Source of the DNA: Sphingomonas sp.
Lineage (GTDB): Bacteria; Pseudomonadota; Alphaproteobacteria; Sphingomonadales; Sphingomonadaceae
Reading direction: 5' to 3'
Assembly: GCF_029239295.1 (NCBI RefSeq)
Contig: NZ_JAQZBC010000014.1
Span: 18,930-82,929 of the forward strand
Length of the DNA stretch: 64,000 nt
Shown here: piece after piece, positions 57,361 through 58,500 of the stretch
Position numbering within the stretch: the stretch's first letter is position 1
How the letters are laid out: the number at the start of each line of letters is the position of its first letter
Translations under genes and position numbers: made by a program
Notes under the pieces: generated by a model
Database searches by the model: none
What the model was told of the DNA's origin: nothing
The model's input: only the letters and a program-made list of their open reading frames with translations

Positions 57361-57437
57361 CGGGGAGTGGCGCAGTCTGGTAGCGCGCCTGCTTTGGGAG
57401 CAGGATGTCGCAGGTTCGAATCCTGTCTCCCCGACCA
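57361..57437 (+). tRNA. tRNA-Pro(TGG), CCA encoded
   Basis: CGGGGAGTGGCGCAGTCTGGTAGCGCGCCTGCTTTGGGAGCAGGATGTCGCAGGTTCGAATCCTGTCTCCCCGACCA. Confidence 0.96.
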
Positions 57438-57533
57438 ACTGCCTGCAAGCTTTTGGTTTCGCTCATTAACGATGTCGATCAGGGACGGTTGTACCCACGA
57501 CTGTGCCCCTCGCTGTACCCTTGGGGTGTCAAA

Positions 57534-58500
57534 ATGGGCTTTCAGAACGTCGTGCTTCGCGGCAGCAGATACCACCGGCGAAAAAAATGACGGTCGCAGG
57601 CGGGTGGTTAACGCTGACTTTACCGTTGGGAGCAATGAGCTTCAAAGACCCGCGCGTTACCGCTGTGCGTCTTGGTTCTGCGGCAGAAGCGTTGCGCATG
57701 GGATACGGTCAGTCGTCATTAGGGGGCCGCCCCGATCAGCTTAAGAAAATTTTCAGCGATGCGCTGCGATGGCAGTCGCAACGCATCCTCGAGGATCAGG
57801 TGCGCGCTATCTCGCGCGCCCTCGAACACGCGGCGGTCAATTCGCGCTATGCGGAAGCGTGGACGTTCCTGTCTAAGTTCGGTGTTTGGACGCCGTGGTC
57901 GCTCGACAACCATGAAGAACTGGTCAGGCAGGGTTGGAACCGGGCGGACGCGGAGGCAGTCGCGGAAGTTGAATTTGACCTTCAGACTACGAGTCCAATC
58001 TCGCGCGAGCAGATCGAGACGTACGTTGTAGCCTTCGATATCGAACGGACAAGCATGAACCTGGCCGAGATGCGCCGAACCATCTGCGCCGCGAAGGCAG
58101 CAGGATGTCGACAAGCTACGGAGAGGTTGTCGACGAACCCGGATGTTCACGCAGACTGGACCGACGATGCACTCGCTTGCGGCGCGCCGTTTGCATGGCA
58201 GTTTGCAGCGGTCGACACGGCTTAACTACCCGCGGCGGGACCAATAAGCAGTCACACGCCCGAGCCGCCTACGGCGGAGCCAGTTCCAGACAAGCCGAAG
58301 ATGCGTCTTATCAGCGCAGCGGAGGGGTGCATCGACGCACACGAGAAAGCTGATGCATGAGACGCCGATATAATCAAACAGGTTCGTACCGCGACTCGCT
58401 TGTTCGACTTCGCGTGCGGGGGAGAAGCTTTTATCGCGGATATTCAGCAGCGACATGTGACTGCATTCACAGACTTGTGTCGGACGCTCCCAATCGGTGG
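57534..58500 (+). pseudogene. Decayed tyrosine-type site-specific integrase, N-terminal/core-binding region only
   Basis: MGFQNVVLRGSRYHRRKK, -1 shift at A7, MTVAGGWLTLTLPLGAMSFKDPRVTAVRLG...; same frame resumes after TAA (58223) and TGA (58358) with IIKQVRTATRLFDFACGGEAFIADIQQRHVTAFTDLCRTLP; ends at the IS. Confidence 0.75.

Follow-up and report, generated by a model that had tools for sequence, protein, structure and literature searches.

Genomic islands that have been integrated into tRNA genes by tyrosine integrases are a known class (Islander, PMC4383910), and the locus described here, located directly behind the tRNA-Pro(TGG) gene of a Sphingomonas genome, is a degraded member of this tRNA-targeted class, i.e. 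an ordinary genomic fossil. It lies in a window of 64,000 bp (bases 18930–82929 of contig C19, in a draft assembly of 3.47 Mb and 36 contigs), the last base of which, 64000, is also the end of the contig; the closest named records with a related integrase gene are Sphingomonas as well. As in the Islander-class islands (PMC4383910), the integrase gene adjoins the tRNA, the tRNA 3′ end serves as the core of the attachment (att) site and a displaced fragment of it is found in intact relatives, whereas the integrase in the window is dead and a right end (attR) was not found. With the tyrosine recombinases of PHROG_1 and PF00589, including those of the DUF6538 type, the family shares a PHROG_1 match and, in intact relatives, a C-terminal R, H-x-x-R, H and Y, but it has no match among Pfam or NCBIfam models, and the copy in the window lacks the catalytic half. 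Homologues of the MobA/MobL relaxase occur at several related tRNA-Pro loci, as they do in integrative mobilizable elements with this type of relaxase, but none is encoded within the 6.5 kb visible beyond tRNA-Pro in the window; a homologous relaxase is located on contig C4. A literature search for Sphingomonas islands at tRNA-Pro retrieved no relevant paper.

We consider it very probable that the locus is the left end (attL) of a genomic island which used the 3′ end of tRNA-Pro(TGG) for site-specific insertion and subsequently died. The tRNA gene itself, reported as intact in an original prediction made from the sequence alone, was recovered by ARAGORN and Rfam, and the tRNA-Met/tRNA-Pro pair is retained in all 11 examined relatives without the integrase. 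In these 11 genomes, homology to the window ends at the tRNA end (57437–57447), i.e. the DNA found beyond tRNA-Pro in the window is missing from the same site. A displaced exact copy of the terminal 18 nt at the tRNA 3′ end was found in 12 of the 14 genomes carrying a full-length integrase at tRNA-Pro(TGG), compared with 0/11 integrase-free genomes (Fisher p = 2e-5, for genomes sampled without phylogenetic independence); intact copies without a displaced core are present in genomes G251 and G469. The claim that the integrase sits beside the tRNA it uses as its att site is borne out by these displaced copies, and the tRNA-Pro 3′ end is thus supported as the putative attachment site of the integrase family.

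In intact relatives, the core is flanked by inverted arms of 21–24 bp. Ahead of the displaced cores stands a conserved right arm which repeats the left arm CTAAGTCRTTGATTTYRCGTCGCC in inverted orientation, with distances to the core of 24 bp and 8 bp; the inverted match is 24/24 in G343, and shorter or with mismatches in other genomes. Measured from core to displaced core, these islands span around 5 to 59 kb. The window has retained an intact core along with a left arm that is degenerate (ctgcaagcttttggtttcgctcattaacg) but still recognisable, and together they support the assignment of the locus to the attL side. At four other loci (L103, L106, L107 and L080) a displaced tRNA-Pro core is followed by a left arm in tandem layout, and in L107 and L080 a right arm also precedes the displaced core, which suggests repeated integration at the same tRNA.

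The integrase-like frame, predicted about 100 bp past the tRNA, opens at 57534, i.e. 96 bp behind tRNA-Pro (MGFQNVVLRGSRYHRRKK, beginning MGFQNVVLRGSRYH). Translated alignment (tblastn) gave 58–59 % identity to intact relatives over around 330 aa (E 1e-122), and as judged by this comparison its match to intact integrases is far beyond chance. Alignment of the window DNA with five intact integrase genes recovered all lesions listed by the original prediction, i.e. an A7 run (57581–57587) one base shorter than in 5/5 intact relatives, an in-frame TAA at 58223–58225 and a TGA at 58358–58360 in place of a Trp (W276) shared by all four intact proteins compared, and added a second frameshift by loss of one base at 58488–58491. 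In several alignments, DNA homology to intact integrase genes stops exactly at 58500, where an insertion sequence (IS) begins; truncation by an IS, as had been read from the sequence, is confirmed by the exact alignment to 58501–59810 of an IS copy that is 85 % identical and lies within the tRNA-Pro island of G452 (L152:556-1868). No catalytic domain is present in the window copy, where homology ends at around residue 323, and the catalytic half was found neither beyond the IS nor elsewhere in the assembly, in which the only other match is a distant paralogue with 24 % identity on C4. The integrase gene is therefore dead, and since its catalytic half is absent from the genome and no right end was found, self-excision by its own enzyme is impossible, as originally proposed. 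Divergence at the three codon positions (0.25/0.21/0.52 between the window and L007) resembles that of an intact pair (0.22/0.20/0.47); third positions exceed the first two in both, which points to a recent loss of the integrase after selection that lasted until fairly recently.

The decayed frame in the window matches no Pfam model, and the intact relatives match neither a Pfam nor an NCBIfam model. As no Pfam model matches, the identification as an integrase derives from the match of intact relatives to PHROG_1 ‘integrase’ (E 6e-17 and 7e-13), so that the predicted integrase similarity holds for PHROG_1 and fails for Pfam. Intact relatives, retrieved by tblastn and scans of public genomes, are 662–687 aa long (around 665 aa for the family). 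Residues R460, H575, R578, H600 and Y610 are invariant in four of them, all within the C-terminal part that is missing from the window; judging by eye and from family knowledge, we take R460, H575-x-x-R578, H600 and Y610 to be the catalytic residues. A plasmid-borne family member in NZ_CP155750.1 is annotated as ‘hypothetical protein’. Besides the copy in the window, a profile search across 295 genomes of the same genus yielded 16 full-length and around 17 decayed ones, nearly all of them directly behind tRNA-Pro (TGG, some CGG) and the others following a displaced repeat of the tRNA 3′ end; around 30 of these genomes carry a family member directly behind tRNA-Pro. MobA/MobL relaxase homologues were found at related tRNA-Pro loci in 6 cases, with one genome counted twice.

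Most decayed relatives (L079-L092, L109, L111 and L112) retain the tRNA-proximal N-terminal part and have lost the catalytic half; in L085 the truncation point nearly coincides in codon position with that in the window, but different DNA follows. An intact island of 27 kb at tRNA-Pro in G336 (L101 + L150, G336:C15:16100-43390) carries a relaxase and genes which by eye resemble a type I restriction-modification system, possibly a defence cargo.

Taking the intact relatives as a basis, an integrase of around 665 aa, encoded just inside the island and reading away from the tRNA, would recombine the 18-bp core formed by the tRNA 3′ end with its counterpart in a circular element, the inverted arm sites of 21–24 bp on either side presumably serving as guides. 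Upon integration, the tRNA would be restored and an 18-bp copy left displaced at the opposite end of the island. In the window, the integrase would have been kept under selection until fairly recently and would then have gained two frameshifts and two stops, while an IS3-type element now stands in place of its catalytic half. Considering that this half is found neither beyond the IS nor elsewhere in the assembly, insertion of the IS together with an adjacent deletion would be the simplest history of its loss.

Several results weigh against an island inserted at this site. Neither an exact second core nor a right arm was found anywhere in the draft assembly, in which contig C19 ends at base 64000. 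In the nearest relatives, tRNA-Pro is followed by genes whose orthologues lie on contig C18 of this assembly, with unrelated neighbours and without any att sequence, so that the far junction may be rearranged. An IS5-like fragment adjoins these orthologues, and the left-hand genes of C18 are located on different contigs in the relatives; therefore, the far junction cannot be placed by C18 synteny. In addition, AlphaFold gave an unusable model for three intact relatives (pLDDT, a predicted confidence score, 37.7). As to the direct repeat of the tRNA-Pro 3′ end expected by the original prediction, the best match outside tRNA genes was 17/18 on C4, with different flanks. This match (C4:30340) belongs to no tRNA gene and would hardly arise by chance, but no right arm accompanies it and it falls at the 3′ end of another DUF6538 integrase, and it was rejected as attR; a 16/18 match on C12, within an apparent coding sequence, was taken as chance.

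That one island runs on beyond the window, as was further claimed, is unproven, considering the end of the contig at base 64000, the missing repeat and an IS without target-site duplication. A shorter history would be that only around 1.06 kb (57438–58500) of the original island is left, the deletion of the catalytic half having also taken the rest, and that the DNA from 58501 onwards arrived by other events, with nothing of the island lying past the window. We regard this as a real possibility, though one with somewhat less than even chances. No target-site duplication was found at the IS junction, and the DNA beyond the IS may therefore not be the original island interior; furthermore, neither a C-terminal half nor a right end was found, most decayed relatives have likewise lost all but the tRNA-proximal portion of their integrase, and the UPF0126 gene beyond the IS has a normal guanine–cytosine (GC) content. 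In contrast, most of the region from 59.8 to 64 kb has a low GC content and may represent island cargo, the G452 island at tRNA-Pro contains a closely related IS, and a bile salt hydrolase gene paired with the UPF0126 gene is found in only 3 of the 295 genomes, in one of which (G206) it lies around 2.4 kb from another tRNA-Pro.

Decay alone would be enough if the gene were a resident, vertically inherited recombinase which mobilises nothing, and its position beside tRNA-Pro in many genomes with nearly constant spacing, as well as the intact copies without displaced core in G251 and G469, would fit this view. It is nevertheless very unlikely, as most intact cases have a displaced core with conserved arms 5–59 kb away, some of them in tandem, genomes without the gene have no displaced cores, and the island contents differ, e.g. 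the restriction-modification-like genes and relaxase in G336. Even more remote is the idea that errors of sequencing or assembly mimic lesions in a functional integrase: two of them are indeed 1-base indels in or beside short homopolymers, but the two in-frame stops, the degenerate arm and the loss of the catalytic half to the IS are independent of homopolymer error. The preferred reading thus remains that of the attL end of a dead island at tRNA-Pro.

While the underlying principle is already well known, the 18-bp core and its arms provide a precise landing site for what is a recurrent hot spot of islands in the genus, and an integrase family to go with it. The copies range in grades from intact ones to fossils, and with this landing site they make it possible to test how islands decay and how cargo genes, such as the rare bile salt hydrolase, become fixed. 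Going further, one might tentatively speculate, with the odds rather against it, about a genus-wide lineage of mobilizable islands outside Pfam and NCBIfam, specialised on tRNA-Pro 3′ ends through a symmetrical core and inverted arms, which recurrently leaves N-terminal integrase scars and by which, in this strain, a bile salt hydrolase of Firmicutes type became fixed in a Sphingomonas chromosome.

Table 1. Features at the tRNA-Pro locus (window coordinates)
Feature	Position	Strand	Basis
tRNA-Met(CAT), conserved neighbour	57236..57310	+	ARAGORN, Rfam
tRNA-Pro(TGG), intact, probable integration target	57361..57437	+	ARAGORN; Rfam tRNA 68.6 bits
attL core ATCCTGTCTCCCCGACCA, last 18 nt of tRNA-Pro	57420..57437	+	Exact displaced direct repeat in relatives with intact integrases
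Degenerate left att arm and integrase leader	57438..57533	+	Arm around 57445–57468, alignment of 25 left arms
Tyrosine-integrase pseudogene	57534..58500	+	tblastn, DNA alignment, end of homology; around residues 1–323 of 666
IS3-family-like IS, 1310 bp	58501..59810	-	HTH_Tnp_1 2.5e-14, IS copy alignment
Gene fragment	59842..60015	+	blastn, 88 % to longer copy on C4:17936-18583
Choloylglycine/bile salt hydrolase gene	60309..61296	+	PF02275 3.5e-102
UPF0126/Gly_transporter-type membrane protein gene	61401..62075	+	PF03458 1.5e-40
Contig end inside repeated sequence	63900..64000		88–93 % copies at C4:9166-9265 and L111

Members of the IS3 family are marked by an orfA with a helix-turn-helix (HTH), terminal inverted repeats and a target duplication of 3–4 bp. 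The IS in the window, a putative member of this family, has imperfect terminal repeats of around 33 bp with TGA...TCA ends, an orfA at 59357–59761 and an orfB in broken frames, but no target duplication. A 14-bp inverted match between the edge of the integrase (58477–58490) and the interior of the IS (59322–59335) was judged coincidental, since the reading order of the IS is continuous.

The GC content drops from 66.3 % (SD, i.e. standard deviation, 2.6 per kb) to 56–58 % beyond the tRNA (z -3 to -3.9), with 58.3 % for the integrase remnant, 56.6 % for the gene fragment and 56.3 % for the hydrolase, but 67.4 % for the UPF0126 gene. The longer copy of the gene fragment on C4 encodes 215 aa with a weak match to an Xre-like antitoxin HTH (Pfam 0.0044, below the cut-off). 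On the same contig (C4:26595-30357, within L148, C4:14000-33290) there are two divergent tyrosine integrases of other lineages with a MobA/MobL relaxase near, one located behind a 3′-end fragment of another tRNA with a similar arm motif and the other ending at the 17/18 tRNA-Pro core; the distant integrase paralogue on C4 weakly matches PF00589.

The stretch 62076–64000 has a low GC content and small open frames only, and ends in repeated transposase-like sequence, which by eye is probably of the IS481 type (63900–64000). The hydrolase is predicted to be a bile salt hydrolase by the NCBIfam equivalog NF038245 (474.7 bits, cut-off 350) and is Firmicutes-like, with around 62 % identity to the Listeria and 60 % to the Enterococcus enzymes. 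Its pairing with the UPF0126 gene (60309–62075; L175, L176 and L177) recurs in G324 and G206. The tRNA-Pro close to the hydrolase in G206 is of the GGG type, with a different gene in between, while the hydrolase in the window lies around 2.9 kb from tRNA-Pro(TGG); this vicinity to tRNA-Pro genes in both genomes fits, but does not prove, a cargo that landed there.
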